DNA of 64,000 nt from a virus. Below the pieces are notes generated by a model that was given only the letters and a program-made list of their open reading frames with translations, had not been told where the DNA came from and searched no databases. Position numbers and translations under genes: made by a program. The DNA lies in the IMG/VR virus record IMGVR_UViG_3300036846_001176, positions 1 through 64,000 of that record; one strand, given 5' to 3'. Shown piece after piece: positions 7,686 through 52,838 of this stretch; position 1 is the stretch's first letter, and every line of letters begins with the position of its first letter.

Positions 7686-8045
7686 TCAGTCATAGGCGAA
7701 CACGACGCCAAACGTGGTGAACGACGCGTAGGCGCAGGCCTGCACCTGAGAGCCGTCGTCGCGCCGCACGAACGCCCCGCAGTGATACGGGTTGTACGTC
7801 ACGGCGCGCCTGGTAAGGCCGTCGGGGATGACATCGACGATCTCGCCGATCGCCCAGGCATGCACCTCGCGCACCCCGTTGCGGACAACGCGGTCGCGGC
7901 CTGACTGAGACACGTGGAAGTGGACGCCGGCGAGCAGGACCAGGCGGCGATGGTCGATGACCAGGCCGTAGCTCCTGCCCGTCCGGCTGGGGATGGCGAT
8001 CGACCAGTCGCCGCGGTTCTTGTTGCGATAAATAGCAACCGCCAT
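7686..8045 (-). CDS. hypothetical protein, 119 aa
   Basis: Not recognised. Mostly beta-strand-like (SYGLVIDHRRLVLLAGVHFH and HAWAIGEIVDVIP), ending in aromatic residues. The start at 8045 follows CAGGG. It is one of few genes in this stretch without a three-way-junction leader and probably shares the message with 8054-8278. Confidence 0.65.
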   Translation of the reverse strand: MAVAIYRNKNRGDWSIAIPSRTGRSYGLVIDHRRLVLLAGVHFHVSQSGRDRVVRNGVREVHAWAIGEIVDVIPDGLTRRAVTYNPYHCGAFVRRDDGSQVQACAYASFTTFGVVFAYD

Positions 8046-8053
8046 CGCCCTGG

Positions 8054-15556: not shown

Positions 15557-16972
15557 ATGTCCGACCGTTCAGACCGAGGCCGCAGCCCCACCGCGCAAGC
15601 CGCCCTCGCCCCCGAAGTCTCGCCCGACGGCGCCCGCATCAACACCCCCACGGGCTGGCTCATCGATGCCGACGGCAATCGGTTCTCCTTGGTCCGCACC
15701 GCCGACAAAGGCATGCAGATCCGCATCAACGCGTTCGTGGATCAGATCACGCAGTACGTCCTCGCCCTGCAGATGCAGGACGGCACCTGCTACCAGGAAA
15801 CCTCGACCTCCGGCTGGTACGTCTACGGCGGCGCGCCAGGCAACTGGACCAGCAGCCCTGCACCCCCCGGCAGTGGCGCTGGGGGTGGCGGCGGTGGTGG
15901 CGGCGGTGGCCCCACCCCGCCAGTCTCCGGCGGCCTCACCGTGCGCAATGGCCGTGTCGTCGACGACAAGGGCAACGACGTGCACCTGCGTGGGCCAAAT
16001 CTCAGGTTCATGAATTGGCCGGACAACCAGAACTCGGTGATGATGCATCCGATCGCCGATCGGCAGCGTTGCCTGCCGGTGCTCGACACCCTGCCCGGCA
16101 TGAACGTCGTCAGGTTCGATGCCTTCGAAAGTATGACCCAGTTCGACGCCGCATCGCCGCAGAACATCATTCCCTACATCGATGCCATCGTGAACAACGG
16201 CGTGTTCTGCGAGGTCGAGTGCCACATCTATCCCACCCTGCTGCAGGGCGGCGACCTCGAGCGCGTCTGCGGCTGGTACTCGCAACTCGCCCGCCACTAC
16301 AAAGACAATCCGAAAGTCATCTGGGGCACGCAGAATGAACCCGGCGGCGGGCCGGATGGTGAAATCAACCGGATCTACGATGCTATCCGAAACGAGGGCA
16401 ATCAGAATTTGATCCTGATGTGCCCGGAAGGCGGATGGTCGTGGTCGAACATGAACCCGGTCAACTACCAGCGCCTGCGCAATGTCGCTTGGGATTTCCA
16501 CTACTACGGCTGGATCCCCAACTATTCCATGGACCCCGCCGTCAACGATCAGGTCCTGCTCGACAACTACAACGGCTCGCTGCGCTTCCAGTCGGCCGAC
16601 GGCAACATCCCGATGTTCGTCGGCGAATTCAGTCCATGCGGCTTCCAGAACTCGAACGCGATTTTCGTGGAAAACGCCTTCTGGATGGACCCCAACGGCC
16701 TCTTGGTCATCGATAGCGTCTACCGCGCGCCGTTCCTCTCGGGTTGGATGCAATGGTTCTGGAATACCCCGGAGACCTCGGCCAGCAACGGGATCGGATT
16801 TTTGCTGAAACCGGATGGCAATTACAACGGCAGCGCCGTTACCGATCACGGCGGCAAGCAGATGGTCGAAGCGCTCCGCCGCGGCTCGCCGGCGGCCGCC
16901 TCGGCTAGCGCCCAAAGCGACGCCAGCGCCGCCGCCGTCGATCAGCGCCAGACCCAGACCAGGGGCCGCTAA
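15557..16972 (+). CDS. glycoside hydrolase family 5 (cellulase-like)
   Basis: From about residue 130 the protein follows GH5: LRGPNLRFMNW, VVRFDAF, KVIWGTQNEPGGG with the acid/base Glu (about E261) in the NEP motif, WDFHYYGWIP, and MFVGEFSPCG with the nucleophile Glu (about E357), then WMQWFW. The N-terminal 110 residues are a separate beta module joined by a run of about ten Gly. The tail is Ala/Ser/Gln-rich. No signal peptide. GH5 enzymes cleave beta-1,4-glucans; a role in degrading host exopolysaccharide or cellulose is likely. Its place in the replication arm rather than the tail genes is unusual. GAGAGGAG precedes the start. Confidence 0.85.
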   Translation: MSDRSDRGRSPTAQAALAPEVSPDGARINTPTGWLIDADGNRFSLVRTADKGMQIRINAFVDQITQYVLALQMQDGTCYQETSTSGWYVYGGAPGNWTSSPAPPGSGAGGGGGGGGGGPTPPVSGGLTVRNGRVVDDKGNDVHLRGPNLRFMNWPDNQNSVMMHPIADRQRCLPVLDTLPGMNVVRFDAFESMTQFDAASPQNIIPYIDAIVNNGVFCEVECHIYPTLLQGGDLERVCGWYSQLARHYKDNPKVIWGTQNEPGGGPDGEINRIYDAIRNEGNQNLILMCPEGGWSWSNMNPVNYQRLRNVAWDFHYYGWIPNYSMDPAVNDQVLLDNYNGSLRFQSADGNIPMFVGEFSPCGFQNSNAIFVENAFWMDPNGLLVIDSVYRAPFLSGWMQWFWNTPETSASNGIGFLLKPDGNYNGSAVTDHGGKQMVEALRRGSPAAASASAQSDASAAAVDQRQTQTRGR

Positions 16973-19548: not shown

Positions 19549-20034
19549 ATGGCCGCCTACCGTCGCAAACCGGTGCGGGCCGCGAGGGCCGAGCTGGTCT
19601 GGCGCGATGGGCGATGTATTGCCACCGTTCCGACGGTCGGGCCGACGCCCGAAAGGCTCGCCAAGGGCGACGTGGTCGGCCGGCGTGCGTTGCAGCGGAA
19701 CGTGATCGAGGAGATCGGCGACGCCGGCGAGCTCGGCGAGGACGTCGCTCAACTCGCCGCGGCGGCTGAGTGGTTCACCACGCAGGCGCACTTGGCACAG
19801 GTGCGTGGGCGGATGGTCTATTCGCAGTTGGTGACGGAACTGCCGACCAGTGCTTCGGCCGAGAAGGTGCGCGCACGCCAACTTCTAGCGCGGGCGTGCG
19901 GGGTGCTTGGGCATGATGCGTGGAGCATTTTGTCTGATACGCTGGTGTGGGACAGCCCGATCCGTGGCCCCGAGCGGCGGGCCATGTTTCGCATGGCGCT
20001 GCGCGCGCTCAGCAAGGCGTTGACGGCCACCTGA
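19549..20034 (+). CDS. hypothetical protein, 161 aa
   Basis: Not recognised. A basic start (MAAYRRKPVRAARAEL), then helices (AQLAAAAEWFTTQAHLAQVR, SAEKVRARQLLARACGVLGH). The only rightward gene between the VRR-NUC operon and the repeat R3; divergent from the AT-hook regulator. Confidence 0.6.
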   Translation: MAAYRRKPVRAARAELVWRDGRCIATVPTVGPTPERLAKGDVVGRRALQRNVIEEIGDAGELGEDVAQLAAAAEWFTTQAHLAQVRGRMVYSQLVTELPTSASAEKVRARQLLARACGVLGHDAWSILSDTLVWDSPIRGPERRAMFRMALRALSKALTAT

Positions 20035-20040
20035 AAACGC

Positions 20041-20584
20041 TGCACATATTGTTGTGCTAGGCTCGTCTAGGCATGTCCTGGCTCGGCAAGGCGTGGCAGG
20101 GCAGGCAGCGCACGGCGGGGCTTGGCCCGGCAACGCAGGGCTCGGCATGGCAGGCACGGCTAGGCTCGGCATGTCAGGGCGCGCCTAGGCATGGCGGGGC
20201 AGGCGGGGCTGGGCTCGGCGAGGCACGTCGCGGCGAGGCTGGGCTCGGCAGGCACGGTTAGGCTTGCCACGGCCAGCCGCGGCACGGCACGGCAGGCTAG
20301 GCTCGGCAACGCGAGGCGCGACGAGGCGCGGCATGGCAGGCGAGGCTTGGCGTGGCTAGGCGCGACAGGGCCCGGCACGGCAGGCTAGGCGCGCCAAGGC
20401 AAGGCAGGGCGCGGCGTGCCCAGGCTCGGCTAGGCAAGGCAGGCGCGCCCTGGCACGGCAAGGCGCGGCGCGCCCAGGCTCGGCTAGGCAGGCAAGGCTT
20501 GGCCTGGCACGACGGGGCTGGGCGCGGCATGGCAGGGCACGGCCGGCACAGCGTTTCGGCAACGGTTCACCGGTCCGGAAACGC
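20041..20584 (+). repeat. GGC-pentamer element R3
   Basis: Palindrome TGCACA...TTGTGC (20041-20057), about 480 bp of degenerate (NNGGC)n with variable NN, then a terminal hairpin GCGTTTC/GGAAACGC (20551-20584) with the conserved loop GCAACGGTTCACCGG. The 5-bp phase is not a multiple of three, so all frames read as low-complexity Ala/Arg/Gly/Pro peptides; none is a credible gene. Confidence 0.75.
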
Positions 20585-20634
20585 AAAAAACCCCCAGCCA
20601 GTCCAGGGGTTCGTTAACCTGGACTAGCTGGGGG
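20585..20634 (-). terminator. strong rho-independent terminator
   Basis: Minus strand stem CCCCCAGCTAGTCCAGG/CCTGGACTGGCTGGGGG, 17 bp with one G-U pair, followed by TTTTTT. It ends the structured RNA transcribed from P4. Confidence 0.9.
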
Positions 20635-21306
20635 TGAGTTACGGCAGGCACGATGCCTGCCGAGCCATACGGGCGAGATTTTGGGGGTCTCACCGCATGG
20701 CATGGGAATTCGGTTGAGGTTCTGGCGAAGGCCGGGAGGCACTGTATCCTCAAGTCCGGGCGACGCCTCGTCTGCCTGCCGTGAGTTCCCTCACAAGGCA
20801 GAGCCTCTAGCCGCACCGCCCCATCTGGCGACGCCCACAGCCGTGGGCGAAGCTCAAACTGGCAGCCCCCCACAGGCCAAAGGCAGGGGTTGTGTCATTT
20901 GCCTGCCGTGAAGCAGGCGTGGCTTGACGCTGGGAGCGATGCGACATCGAGCAACTCGCCGACTGGATGGGCCAAAAGCGCACCCACCGGCACCACGTGA
21001 CTGGCATCGGTCCCTAGATCACAAGGATAGGGCTCTGCCGGGTGGTCGTGGCATCAGCTTGCTGCGAGCCTGCCCATAGTCGAAGCCGTGGGCAGGGATC
21101 GTTCGAGGGTTTAGGCAGGATGGTGGCAGCCACCCATTAGTGCCTGGTTCGCGCCGCTTAGGCTTGCCACGGCTATGCGAAATTCCTTTTGGTTTCCTCC
21201 CTCGACGGGATCCGATCAAGTCACCGGGCAACCGGGCCCGGAGCATCTTATCGCGGCGAAGGCCGCTATCGCCACTGACGGGAGCGAAGACGTCCGCTTG
21301 ATCACT
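20635..21306 (-). ncRNA. putative structured non-coding RNA, about 0.7 kb
   Basis: A 670-nt stretch with no credible gene, bounded by promoter P4 and a strong terminator on the same strand. It folds into many local hairpins: CCTGCCCA/TGGGCAGG (21069-21096), GGTGG/CCACC (21122-21134), GCCTGC/GCAGGC (20901-20918), CGCCCAC/GTGGGCG (20832-20849), CTGCCT+GTGAG/CTCAC+AGGCAG (20772-20801) capped by a GGAA tetraloop on the minus strand, and GGCAGGCA/TGCCTGCC (20643-20661). A GNRA cap on this strand supports leftward transcription. Not tmRNA, RNase P or a recognised intron by eye. Confidence 0.6.
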
Positions 21307-21312
21307 ACGGGA

Positions 21313-21343
21313 CTGATATGGTTATCCGTCCCGCAGTCATCAA
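21313..21343 (-). promoter_or_regulatory. leftward promoter P4 (drives ncRNA)
   Basis: Minus strand TTGATG, 19-bp spacer ending GGATAACCA, TATCAG. Expected start near 21306, directly before the structured region. No start codon with a ribosome site follows it. Confidence 0.65.
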
Positions 21344-21367
21344 GTGTATTCCGTAACAAAAATGCGG

Positions 21368-21964
21368 CTACAGCTCTGCAAAGTGCTGTACCGATTGCTC
21401 GGGATGGCCGAATGGGTTGAACACCATTCGCACCCCGAGCGGCTCGGCGAGGAATTCAAACGTCGCCGAGCCCGGCATGTGCCGGAGGTCGTGCAGGTTG
21501 AGAAACGCAAGGGTCAGCTTGCGCGCCATGTGCAGCAGGTCCCCCGTGGTCACACGTGGCAGCCGATCGGGTTCGTCTGCCGTCATCGGATCGTCCTGGG
21601 GCTCAACGAGCCCGGAGGACAGTGCATGTCTGCTTGTCCAGTTGGCGCCCCATGGGCGCGGCTGGAACGAAATGGTGGCAGCGCCGGCGTCGCGGAATGT
21701 GACGATCGCGCGCTGGCTGTCGGCTACGCGGGCAAATGCCGCGAGGATGGCTAGGCCGAGGTCAATCGCCTCGGTGTAGGCTTTGGGCTTTGGCTTCGCT
21801 TTGCGGAGCCGGTCGTAGTGCATCGGCATGCGGAGGGCGAGCAGTGCTCGCTCATGTGCCGCCCACAGCGCGTTCATGGGCCGGTTCGTCACCGGCAGTG
21901 CGTTGTGGAACTGCTTGGTCTCCTGCAATGCATCAACGATGCGCTCGACATGAGGGTTTGGCAT
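21368..21964 (-). CDS. hypothetical protein, 198 aa
   Basis: Not recognised. Helical N-terminal half (RIVDALQETKQFHNALPVTN, AHERALLALRMPMHYDRLRK), a Lys-rich KAKPKPKAY linker, then an alpha/beta C-terminal half (ATISFQPRPWGANW, FEFLAEPLGVRMVFNPFG). Start 21964 fits leader I. Last protein gene before the ncRNA promoter. Confidence 0.7.
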   Translation of the reverse strand: MPNPHVERIVDALQETKQFHNALPVTNRPMNALWAAHERALLALRMPMHYDRLRKAKPKPKAYTEAIDLGLAILAAFARVADSQRAIVTFRDAGAATISFQPRPWGANWTSRHALSSGLVEPQDDPMTADEPDRLPRVTTGDLLHMARKLTLAFLNLHDLRHMPGSATFEFLAEPLGVRMVFNPFGHPEQSVQHFAEL

Positions 21965-22030: not shown

Positions 22031-22474
22031 TCAGGGTCGTTTTTCGGTCCAGGTCTTGAACTCGCGGAGCTGCTCGGGATCGAGCCAGTCCCAGCGTCCC
22101 TCGAAGCGGATCGCGCGGTCGTCGATCGTCAGGAAGGCGGGAGGTTTCTGGTTGGTAAACTCCAGGAGAATGAGATCTGCCCGGCGTGCGTGCAGCAGCC
22201 GCAGGAACGGTGAAGCTTCGCTCGGAAAATCGGTAATTTGCCAGCCTTCCTGGAAGGCGTGTCCACCGATCCAGACTGCCATTTCTTTGATGCTGTCCGG
22301 GTCTTTCGAGCGTGAGCTGTAAACGACCAGGCGGAAGTGCTTGCCGGCCTTGTGGGCCCAATCGAGAAACCCTGGCGTCACGGTGCCGTAGAGCTCGCCG
22401 TTCTGCCAGCCTCGCTCATAGCTGTGGATTACGCCATCAAAGTCGAGACAGATGACCGGACGATCGCTTGGCAT
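22031..22474 (-). CDS. HAD-superfamily phosphatase-like protein, 147 aa
   Basis: VICLDFDGVIHSY at residues 6-18 is HAD motif I (DxDG); FRLVVYSSRS gives motif II; FLTIDDRAIRF gives motif IV (DD). Short HAD proteins of this type in phages act as nucleotide or polynucleotide phosphatases. No cap domain. The leader (22481-22503) keeps AAAGGC and a CCGT/ACGG hairpin but not the full junction. Element R4 lies just upstream. Confidence 0.75.
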   Translation of the reverse strand: MPSDRPVICLDFDGVIHSYERGWQNGELYGTVTPGFLDWAHKAGKHFRLVVYSSRSKDPDSIKEMAVWIGGHAFQEGWQITDFPSEASPFLRLLHARRADLILLEFTNQKPPAFLTIDDRAIRFEGRWDWLDPEQLREFKTWTEKRP

Positions 22475-22513
22475 GGCGTGGCCTTTCGTGCCGTTGACGG
22501 ACGATGAAAACAC

Positions 22514-22683
22514 TGCACATTATCTTGGACCAGGCTCGGCATGGCAAGTTCCGGCTCGGCGTGGCAGGGAGTGGCCCGGCTAGGCACGGCAGGCGTGGCG
22601 GGGCCTGGCTCGTCCGGGCAAGGCACGGCGTGGCGCGGCCGGCACGGCAAGCCCCGCGGCAACGGTTCACCGGCCGCGGGGCA
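22514..22683 (+). repeat. GGC-pentamer element R4
   Basis: Starts TGCACATTATC..., about 130 bp of (NNGGC)n, then hairpin GCCCCGCGG/CCGCGGGGC (22652-22683) with the conserved loop. Directly follows the stop of 22690-22899 on the minus strand. GAAAAC precedes the first palindrome arm, as in R3. Confidence 0.75.
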
Positions 22684-27458: not shown

Positions 27459-27517
27459 TCCTTTCACCGGAGACAGCCGGTTCTCTGCCGTGCCGCGGGG
27501 ATCGCGACACGAAAGGA
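27459..27517 (-). ncRNA. three-way-junction leader T
   Basis: Closing stem TCCTTTC/GAAAGGA, hairpin A around GTCGCGATCCCCGCGGCAC, GGCAGAGAA, hairpin B CCGGC/CCGG with loop TGTCT. Confidence 0.8.
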
Positions 27518-30007: not shown

Positions 30008-30976
30008 GGGGCGCAGCCGGTGAACCGTTGCTGCGCCCCTCAGGCTATGCCGGCCGGGCCGTGCCTCGGCGTGCCTTGCCCTGCCTCGCCACGCCTGCCG
30101 TGCCTAGACGAGCCTTGCCCAGCCATGCCCTGCCTGCCGTGCCCCGCCGCGCCGAGCGTTGCCCTGCGCTGCCGTGCCGAGCCTGCCGTGCCGAGCCACG
30201 CGAGGCCCGGACGCGCCGTGCCTCGCCACGCCTGCCATGCCTCGACCTGCCGCGCGGAGCCATGCCGTGCCACGCGATGCCGAGCCTGCCGGGCCCTGCC
30301 TCGCGCGGCCGCGCCGCGCCATGTCGCGCCAAGCCATGCCGAGCCTGCCTTGCCCTGACATGCCCTGCCGAGCCGGGCCTGGACTTGCCACGCCTGCCAA
30401 GCCGCGCCTTGGCGTGACGCGCCCAGCCTTGCCATGCCCGCCGTGCCCAGCCATGCCGCGTCGTGCCGGGCCATGCGATGCCGCGCCTAGCCTGCCGTGC
30501 CAAGCCAGGCCGGGACACGCCCGACCACGACCTGCCATGCGCTGACATGCCTGCCGCGCCGGGCCACGCCTCGCCACGCCGGAACGGGCCATGCCATGGC
30601 GCGCCATGCCTGCCCCGCCTTGCCGAGCCCTGCCGTGCCTAGCGGCGCCGAGCCCCGCCCCGCCTGGCCTGCCTTGCCGAGCCGTGCCACGCCGTGCGTT
30701 GCCGAGCCATGACCTGCCAAGCCTCGCCTGCCGTGACGGGACTTGCCTTGACCTGCCACGCCTCGCCACGCCTGCCGAGCCGTGCCACGCCATGCCCTGA
30801 CGAGCCGTGCGTTGCCATGCCTGCCGAGCCACGCCGAGACGTGCCTTGGCTTGTCTCGCCATGACGCGCCTCGTCGTGCCTGCCAAGCCATGCCCTGCCA
30901 GGCCTTACCGCGACTGGGGAGGCCATGCCGTGCCACGCCTGCCAAGGTGCACCTGCCATCAAGCCGGCGCAGGTGC
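30008..30976 (-). repeat. GGC-pentamer element R7 (0.9 kb)
   Basis: Inverted copy: hairpin GGGGCGCAG/CTGCGCCCC (30008-30039) with the complementary conserved loop, about 900 bp of degenerate (GCCNN)n, and a palindrome GCACCTGC/GCAGGTGC (30949-30976) at the far end. Largest element in the window. No credible gene inside; all six frames run open as Ala/Arg/Gly/Pro/Cys low complexity. Confidence 0.8.
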
Positions 30977-51269: not shown

Positions 51270-52838
51270 ATGGCAGTCGATCCCGCCCAGATCCAGGCCA
51301 CCCTCGATGGCGAACTGGCCAAGTTCGTCGAAGCCGCCGGCAGTCCCGAGCGCCAGGCAGAGGTGCTGATCAAGATCGGCTTCTACCGCCAGGAACTCGC
51401 CAAGCAGGCCGACATGCTGTCGAGCGTCGATGACGATCTCGCCATCGAGGTGGCCGAGCAGTGGTTCGGCGAGGGCGACGAGTTGCTCAAGCGGGCGGTG
51501 TGGAATGCCTCGGCGGGCTCTGAGGAAATCCCGCTGCGCAAGCAGGCGCCGGTGCCGGAGGCCGAGCAGGCGCTCGCCAAGATGGTCGACGAGTGCCAGA
51601 CCGACAACGCCCGCGCGCTGCTGCTGCACAAGATCGGCAGCTACACGCGCGAGATGAACGACATGGTCGATGCGCTGCAGGGCCAGCCCGATGCGCGGGT
51701 CAACGAAGTGGTGACCGCGTGGCTGACCGCCGATCCCGGTGAGACGGCGTTGAAGAAGAACGTGCTCACCGCGGGCATGCCATCGTCCGGCAGGCGCCTC
51801 TACGGCAACGGCGTCGATGGCGATGGCGATCCGGTCAAGGAGACGATCGGCAACGCCTCAAGCCATGTCGGCAATGAGCTCGACGGCAGCGAGAAGGGTT
51901 CCGATCAGGCCATCCGGCGGACAATTCCGCGACGTCCGACCGGTGAGGGAGCGGGGAAGCGGGTTCGTGGCAGCTTCCCCGCACCCAACCAGCGTGACGG
52001 CGAAACGCCGAGCCCTGGCTCGGGTCCGAACGACACCGGCGACGGTGGCGTCAATCCCGAGATCATCCGCCGCAAGGGCACCACGGGCGGCCTTGGCAGC
52101 GTGAAGGGCGCCGATGCCGAGAGCAACGCGACGGTCACGCAGGACAGCACCCATGGCACGAACCAGTGGGGCGGTCAGAGCGGCGGCAAGAACCGCAAGC
52201 GGAGCAACGAGAGCGACCAGGGCGTGCACACCGCGCAGAAGGCCGAGTTCATCGCCGACCTGATGAAGATCGCGCCGGACGAGATGGTCGATGCGATCCT
52301 CGAGCTACCGGAAGATGACCAGGACCTCGCCGCCGGCGTAGCCGCCAACCATGCGGCGGACCTGCTGGCCTGGACGGGCCTAGTGCCTGAGGGTGGGCTT
52401 GCCAAGCGGGCGCTCGATGCCTCCGTCACCGAATGGCTGGAGGAGGATCCCGACCAGATCCAGCTGAAGAAGTGGGTGGCCGAGGCGTTGACCACCGCCG
52501 AGGAAATCCCGCTCGATCTCGGCAAGGCGATCATCGAATGGGAGCCGGCGGGGCCGCAGTTCACGGTGCGGCGCGAGGTCGGCAAGAGCGAGGTCGGGGG
52601 CGGATTGCGGAAGCTCGGTCCCGGCGGCCAGTTGGCACGCACTGCGGCGATCGTAACGGGCGCGCATTTGGGCGCCGGTGCGGCGGTCGGTGCTGCTGTC
52701 GCTGCCGGCCACAAATTCAAGAAGGCGCCGAAGCACACGCTCGCCCATCATCTCGGCTACAGCATGCTGTTCAACCCGGTCGCCTACGGCGGCTATCGAG
52801 CAGGTCGCGCGATCGGTCAGCGCCCGCGGGGGGATTAA
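51270..52838 (+). CDS. head-module protein, 522 aa
   Basis: Not recognised. Two helical repeats (SPERQAEVLIKIGFYRQELA; TDNARALLLHKIGSYTREMN) precede a disordered Gly/Asn/Thr region (about 200-320), then ILELPEDDQDLAAGVAANHA (same words in 61453-63006) and a Gly/Ala zipper near the end (AHLGAGAAVGAAVAAGHKFK) with YRAGRAIG. CAGGAGAGAG precedes the start. Confidence 0.6.
   Translation: MAVDPAQIQATLDGELAKFVEAAGSPERQAEVLIKIGFYRQELAKQADMLSSVDDDLAIEVAEQWFGEGDELLKRAVWNASAGSEEIPLRKQAPVPEAEQALAKMVDECQTDNARALLLHKIGSYTREMNDMVDALQGQPDARVNEVVTAWLTADPGETALKKNVLTAGMPSSGRRLYGNGVDGDGDPVKETIGNASSHVGNELDGSEKGSDQAIRRTIPRRPTGEGAGKRVRGSFPAPNQRDGETPSPGSGPNDTGDGGVNPEIIRRKGTTGGLGSVKGADAESNATVTQDSTHGTNQWGGQSGGKNRKRSNESDQGVHTAQKAEFIADLMKIAPDEMVDAILELPEDDQDLAAGVAANHAADLLAWTGLVPEGGLAKRALDASVTEWLEEDPDQIQLKKWVAEALTTAEEIPLDLGKAIIEWEPAGPQFTVRREVGKSEVGGGLRKLGPGGQLARTAAIVTGAHLGAGAAVGAAVAAGHKFKKAPKHTLAHHLGYSMLFNPVAYGGYRAGRAIGQRPRGD

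Follow-up and report, generated by a model that had tools for sequence, protein, structure and literature searches.

We asked what is encoded by an interval of an uncultured phage genome in which no credible gene is apparent over about 670 nt. The window analysed here comprises positions 1-64000 of a 104,559-base record of this phage, and the interval, 20585-21343, was read on both strands. An initial annotation, made by eye on this single sequence, had placed here a putative non-coding RNA, structured and equipped with a promoter and a terminator of its own. The coordinates held, with the element itself occupying 20584-21308 on the minus strand, and this reading is now supported independently by a comparison of three genomes, that is, by conserved position, promoter and terminator design, by the lack of a conserved frame and by many compensatory changes on the predicted strand. 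Its parts concerning transcription and function are inferred, not shown.

A putative transcription unit between two conserved genes

A terminase search yielded one close IMG/VR contig, G001 (85% protein identity), and a portal alignment added two more, G002 and G003. Both G001 (102.6 kb), syntenic with the window genome over most of its length, and the syntenic relative G002 (91.5 kb) carry the element, which in all three genomes lies between homologs of the same two genes. The upstream neighbour (21368-21964, minus strand) encodes a 198-aa protein of unknown family with homologs 54% identical in G001 and 48% in G002. The downstream convergent neighbour (19549-20034, plus strand) encodes 161 aa, also of unknown family (homologs 67% and 56% identical, respectively), and serves as a synteny marker. 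G003 is a 75 kb fragment without the element and without the flanking genes tested, and is therefore uninformative in this respect. Over its most conserved 196 bases the element is 78.5% identical between the window and G001, compared with about 70% for the neighbouring genes, which indicates that this non-coding stretch is held tighter than the adjoining coding DNA.

The predicted promoter (21315-21343, minus strand) consists of a -35 box TTGATG (21343-21338), a 17-nt spacer and a -10 box CATATC (21320-21315). Because just 3 of the 6 bases of CATATC agree with the sigma-70 consensus for this box, a consensus promoter scan missed it, and such a -10 box, poor by E. coli standards, counts against our reading. 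The exact pattern TTGA-N19-CATATC is present once in the window (0.01 copies expected) and recurs at the homologous site in both G001 and G002. The promoter proposed initially (P4, 21313-21343) thus held, as TTGATG-N17-CATATC conserved in both relatives. An imperfect dyad, CTTGATGACTGCGG / CCGTAGTGATCAAG, extends across the promoter (21300-21345), with a similar dyad in G001 and GACCGTT / AACGGTC in G002; it could conceivably be an operator.

All three units end in an intrinsic terminator. In the window it spans 20584-20635 on the minus strand and is composed of an 18-nt stem (20590-20607/20618-20635, 94% complementarity), the loop UUAACGAACC and U6, followed by GCGU; the 17-bp terminator with six T noted earlier was thereby confirmed. 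The stems are wholly different among the three genomes, with 16 pairs kept, 8 of them changed on both sides, while the loop is AACGAAC-like in every case and the tail TTTTTTGCGT is kept. AACGAAC was not found to be a common terminator loop within the window. From promoter and terminator positions, with the start inferred about 7 nt past the -10 box, predicted RNA lengths are about 725 nt in the window, 720 nt in G001 and 595 nt in G002. The element is thus likely a non-coding transcription unit that stands by itself, with a promoter and a strong intrinsic terminator of its own, although this is inferred from sequence comparison and transcription was not observed.

Two other explanations of the locus should be considered at this point. 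As for the first, the upstream gene might simply have a long 3' untranslated region that makes up the element and runs to the terminator of that operon, as the element lies on the same strand about 60 nt past the stop codon. Against this, a separate terminator-like hairpin (CCCTGCGAGAGATCCTCGCGGGGCGTTTTTT) is situated in G002 between the upstream gene and the element's promoter, so that the upstream gene ends in its own terminator-like hairpin and the element is not a 3' untranslated region in that genome. Furthermore, the promoter is conserved with fixed spacing, and a compensated multi-domain fold (see below) is not needed by a 3' untranslated region. We consider this explanation very unlikely. 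As for the second, the element might encode a short missed protein, since open reading frames of 40-130 aa overlap the region, the longest being up to 129 aa. A conserved frame, which according to the initial annotation would, together with ribosome footprints, have refuted the RNA reading, was looked for in the three genomes and not found: among stop-to-stop frames of at least 35 aa, none was kept in all three copies, only short pieces in shifting frames. The short frame matches follow nucleotide identity, and 1-nt indels occur within the best conserved part. The absence of a credible gene from about 670 nt therefore held, with no ORF conserved across relatives, and a short protein is all but excluded.

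Folding, strand and domain structure

The minus strand of the window element folds at -353 kcal/mol, compared with -311 +/- 7 kcal/mol for dinucleotide shuffles (z -5.8), and the z values for G001 and G002 are -9.4 and -7.2; no shuffle folded as well as the real RNA in any of the three genomes. The many hairpins seen initially thus correspond to folding beyond chance. A hairpin capped by GGAA, also pointed out then, is present (GUGAG-GGAA-CUCAC), but its loop is not conserved, G001 and G002 having other hairpins in its place. The antisense (plus) strand of the window has a z of -4.1, and the three-sequence consensus fold, when compared with column shuffles, reaches -7.8 in sense and -5.7 in antisense orientation.

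Covariation among relatives, suggested earlier as a check, was examined on the three copies and many compensatory changes were found. The hand-built structure comprises 84 pairs, 28 of which show compensatory changes. Its core contains 38 pairs with 91% of cells paired and 11 pairs changed on both sides; neither value was reached by any of 500 shuffles, and slid versions gave 0-2 compensated pairs. Outside the core, eight helices (P1, P6, P6a, P6b, P7, P8, P11 and P12) with 46 pairs are formed in 138 of 138 cells, and 17 of these pairs show a compensatory change. When the same helices were slid by 1-3 bases, only 34-49% of cells were paired and 0-3 pairs compensated. Their paired cells include 14 G-U and no A-C; as A-C corresponds to G-U on the other strand, it can be inferred that the minus strand is the selected RNA.

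From this we conclude that the element is very likely a real, selected structured RNA, and that its unit, strand, non-coding nature and secondary structure are probably correct as supported by genome comparison. It should be kept in mind that the three genomes represent one lineage, that each compensatory change is a single observation without a deep covariation statistic, and that the helices outside the core were hand-picked from the same three sequences. An alternative would be a DNA element, such as a replication origin or a packaging or binding region, with the hairpins acting as DNA. It is favoured by the dyad across the promoter in all three genomes and by the antisense strand also folding better than shuffles. 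Against it, the 14 G-U and absent A-C cells mark one selected strand, the sense consensus fold is the stronger one, promoter and terminator frame the structure, and a GC-skew change near 19 kb coincides with a switch in gene direction. This possibility therefore appears very remote.

The structured RNA, as we model it, starts with the 5' hairpin P1 (21269-21287, minus strand, as are all domains), UCGC-UCCCGUCAGUG-GCGA, the loop of which is nearly invariant while the closing pair is C-G, A-U or G-C in the three genomes. Core domain I (20948-21066), aligned over the three copies with its structure assigned by hand, has a 13-bp outer stem, a bulged stem CCAC-GAC/GUC-AC-GUGG and two hairpins, one with a C(U/A)UGU loop and the other with a GC-UUUUG-GCC loop. 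The covariance model of this domain, R1, scores 128, 126 and 104 bits on the three copies, with 17.8 bits as the next best match elsewhere in the examined sequence of those genomes. Domain II (20810-20945) is enclosed by P6 (20945-20933/20822-20810) and contains P6a, P6b, P7 (20918-20901) and P8 (20888-20868); a variable hairpin separates P8 from the 3' strand of P6. The helices of this domain all pair in the three genomes, with repeated compensatory changes. Domain III (20717-20806) is an apparent three-way junction P11/P12/P13 with an invariant joining strand, GCAGACGA (20775-20768). Several of the hand-built helices were recovered by a systematic scan for helices kept in three copies. The 5' third and the stretch ahead of the terminator are variable and not conserved. 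Finally, the P1 loop (GUYAG) could form a kissing pair with the P8 loop (UURGC), and the one change per loop in G002 is compensatory; being 1 of 114 listed stacks, this contact is a possible candidate only.

Comparison with known RNAs and search for further copies

Large structured RNAs known from phages are very few, and to our knowledge none of them has an established function. GOLLD and ROOL, both encoded by phages and of unknown function, are described as assembling into cages made of RNA alone (PMC12286853). An Rfam scan of the whole window, a check proposed with the initial annotation, returned no family at the gathering threshold. When the three copies were compared with Rfam using cmscan (E<=10 or 5), only unrelated sub-threshold matches at chance level appeared, and ARAGORN detected no tmRNA in the window. 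The initial impression of no match to GOLLD, ROOL, tmRNA, RNase P or introns was thus borne out by the Rfam scans, and an identity as ROOL, GOLLD, OLE, tmRNA, RNase P or an intron was rejected for want of an Rfam match.

Similarities in kind nevertheless exist. ROOL (Rumen-Originating, Ornate, Large; 659 nt for env-120), which is phage- or prophage-encoded and of unknown function (PMC12286853), is like the element large and non-coding, with a complex fold and conserved loops beside a variable stretch (PMC12286853). However, no ROOL match was found by Rfam in any of the three genomes, and while ROOL is often located near tRNA islands, the window has only one tRNA gene, at 51545, about 30 kb away. 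ROOL forms a homo-octameric nanocage, whereas self-assembly of the element is an inferred possibility without assembly data. GOLLD is likewise a large phage-encoded RNA of unknown function with a conserved and a more variable part (PMC12286853); it differs in that Rfam gave no match and that many GOLLD members are longer than 800 nt and situated close to tRNAs; the element is about 595-725 nt long and stands alone between two protein genes. The context typical of GOLLD and ROOL, proximity to tRNA islands, is therefore not met. OLE is similar in being about 600 nt long and multi-domain, and its palindromic loop (GGCC, GAUC or AGCU) pairs with a copy in a second chain (PMC12286853). The P8 loop of the element holds an OLE-like GGCC in two of the three genomes; in G002 it reads AGCC, which shows that the palindrome is not kept throughout, and no Rfam match to OLE was obtained. 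HEARO/omega RNA, retrons and group I/II introns are also large structured RNAs, though carried on mobile elements; here the adjoining genes encode no recognised nuclease or reverse transcriptase, no gene is interrupted and Rfam gave no match. The element thus probably qualifies as a large structured phage non-coding RNA (an independent unit without a conserved frame and with extensive covarying structure, its expression being inferred), and in all likelihood resembles GOLLD- and ROOL-type RNAs in kind while being a member of neither.

Further copies were not found. Neither blastn of the element copies against cultured phages nor blastn of the window core against plasmids gave a match, a pattern scan of a genome collection gave none, and no further relative emerged from IMG/VR pattern scans or from 92 genome searches. 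The latter were run as cmsearch with R1 and took in 49 genomes that carry related prophage genes and 43 from a single order, with some genomes shared between the two sets; 42 phage records related by their portal were searched likewise. Only two weak matches of 15-18 bits resulted, both in phage records and judged to be chance. Several candidates were rejected: the additional TTGA-N19-CATATC of G001 and the one of G003, which have unrelated sequence downstream, and IMG/VR pattern matches lying in unrelated sequence (L020-L026 and L032) or without a score with R1 (L216-L219 and L220-L234). We infer that the RNA likely represents a new family, which in these searches was confined to a single lineage of uncultured phages. 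Such lineage-limited RNAs are missed by Rfam-based annotation of viral contigs. An unrelated new family for which promoter and terminator are defined, and for which a structure is available from three genomes, provides a concrete object for probing, pull-down and cryo-EM, and allows one to ask whether large structured RNAs arose repeatedly in phages.

Possible modes of action and neighbouring elements

In the mechanism we propose, leftward transcription from the element's promoter would give a large non-coding RNA of several domains, about 0.6-0.7 kb long, which would work in trans during infection by virtue of its folded shape. A scaffold would be formed by the 5' hairpin, core domain I, domain II, the three-way-junction domain III and the terminator. 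Invariant unpaired pieces (the UCCCGUYAGUG, C(U/A)UGU and UUUUG loops, the AAGCYAY/AAAU internal loop and the GCAGACGA joining strand) would provide the surfaces that stabilise the fold or contact a partner. This partner could be further copies of the RNA, by analogy with GOLLD and ROOL, or a protein of phage or host origin, the neighbouring 198-aa protein being one candidate. Action as a folded object is inferred from the large size, the many domains and the conserved loops and joining strands, in place of one exposed antisense stretch. Since transcription, action in trans and the choice between a scaffold and a base-pairing regulator are all inferred, the scaffold mechanism may as easily prove wrong as right, and binding of the RNA to itself or to protein is likewise inferred, without binding or expression data. 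A bolder reading, possible at best as assembly is only inferred, is that of a third, unrelated class of 'ornate' phage RNA besides GOLLD and ROOL, self-assembling into an RNA-only particle; if true, RNA nanostructures would have evolved independently in phages. The unconserved 5' third and pre-terminator stretch are unlike a uniformly rigid particle and count against the scaffold mechanism.

Alternatively, the RNA could be a protein-bound component, or a decoy against host defence or a host machine, with a specific protein and not RNA copies as its partner. Conserved junction strands are typical of protein or tertiary contact sites, and the gene for the 198-aa protein of unknown family adjoins the RNA in each of the three genomes. 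On the other hand, neither adjoining gene was recognised as belonging to a nuclease, reverse transcriptase or toxin family, and adjacency alone is weak evidence for an upstream neighbour without a family or confident fold match: the 198-aa protein had no match in Pfam, PHROG or PDB, and its fold was predicted with low confidence. This alternative remains possible, and so, given the adjacency kept in three genomes and the lack of binding data, does the 198-aa protein as RNA partner.

A repeated 30-nt leader, GGCAG-AGA-[b]-CTGYC-n-[b']-GAAAGG, is found just ahead of start codons and reads as an H-type pseudoknot. On the window minus strand it starts at 27489, 26284, 25971, 23811, 22005, 9936 and 9016, and it also occurs at L012:18663 (+) and L207:9198 (-). 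Its second stem changes with compensation (ACCGG/CCGGT, CGACC/GGTCG, GCCCG/CGGGC and others), and shuffled windows contain the pattern 0-1 times; it is likely a shared translational control element.

The leaders bear on another alternative, a base-pairing regulator whose exposed parts would pair with them (GGCAGAGA...) or with host mRNAs, altering translation. In its favour, the leaders are a genuine repeated feature, and the GGCAGAG with which they begin is complementary to CUCUGCC in the 5' strand of P12. In the window genome, the mean duplex energy with the seven leaders beats 100 of 100 shuffled RNAs. However, this effect is not conserved, being equalled by 12 of 100 shuffles in G001 and by 46 of 100 in G002; CUCUGCC is itself paired in P12, a 700-nt fold is far bigger than base-pairing regulators need, and the only perfect complement to the conserved P1 loop within the window is the loop itself. 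A tie to the leader junctions, hinted at in the initial annotation, thus proved weak when tested, with 7-nt complementarity in two genomes and an imperfect one in the third, and we regard a base-pairing regulator as unlikely.

Some other features of the window were recorded. Long degenerate GGC-rich intergenic repeats (GGCACGGCAGGCTAGGCTCGG-like, TRF periods 15-98) are present at 20040-20560, 22540-22680 and 30048-30900, and also at L012 around 7980-8050; in G001 they are mostly located elsewhere, and in G002 the RNA has none next to it. The gene at 22031-22477 (minus strand), which lies upstream of the 198-aa gene, has a weak match, below the curated cut-off (E 3e-5), to the HAD domain of Swiss Army Knife RNA repair proteins. 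Finally, a phage gene at 15557-16972 (plus strand) contains a glycosyl hydrolase family 5 (cellulase) domain (E 3e-16).
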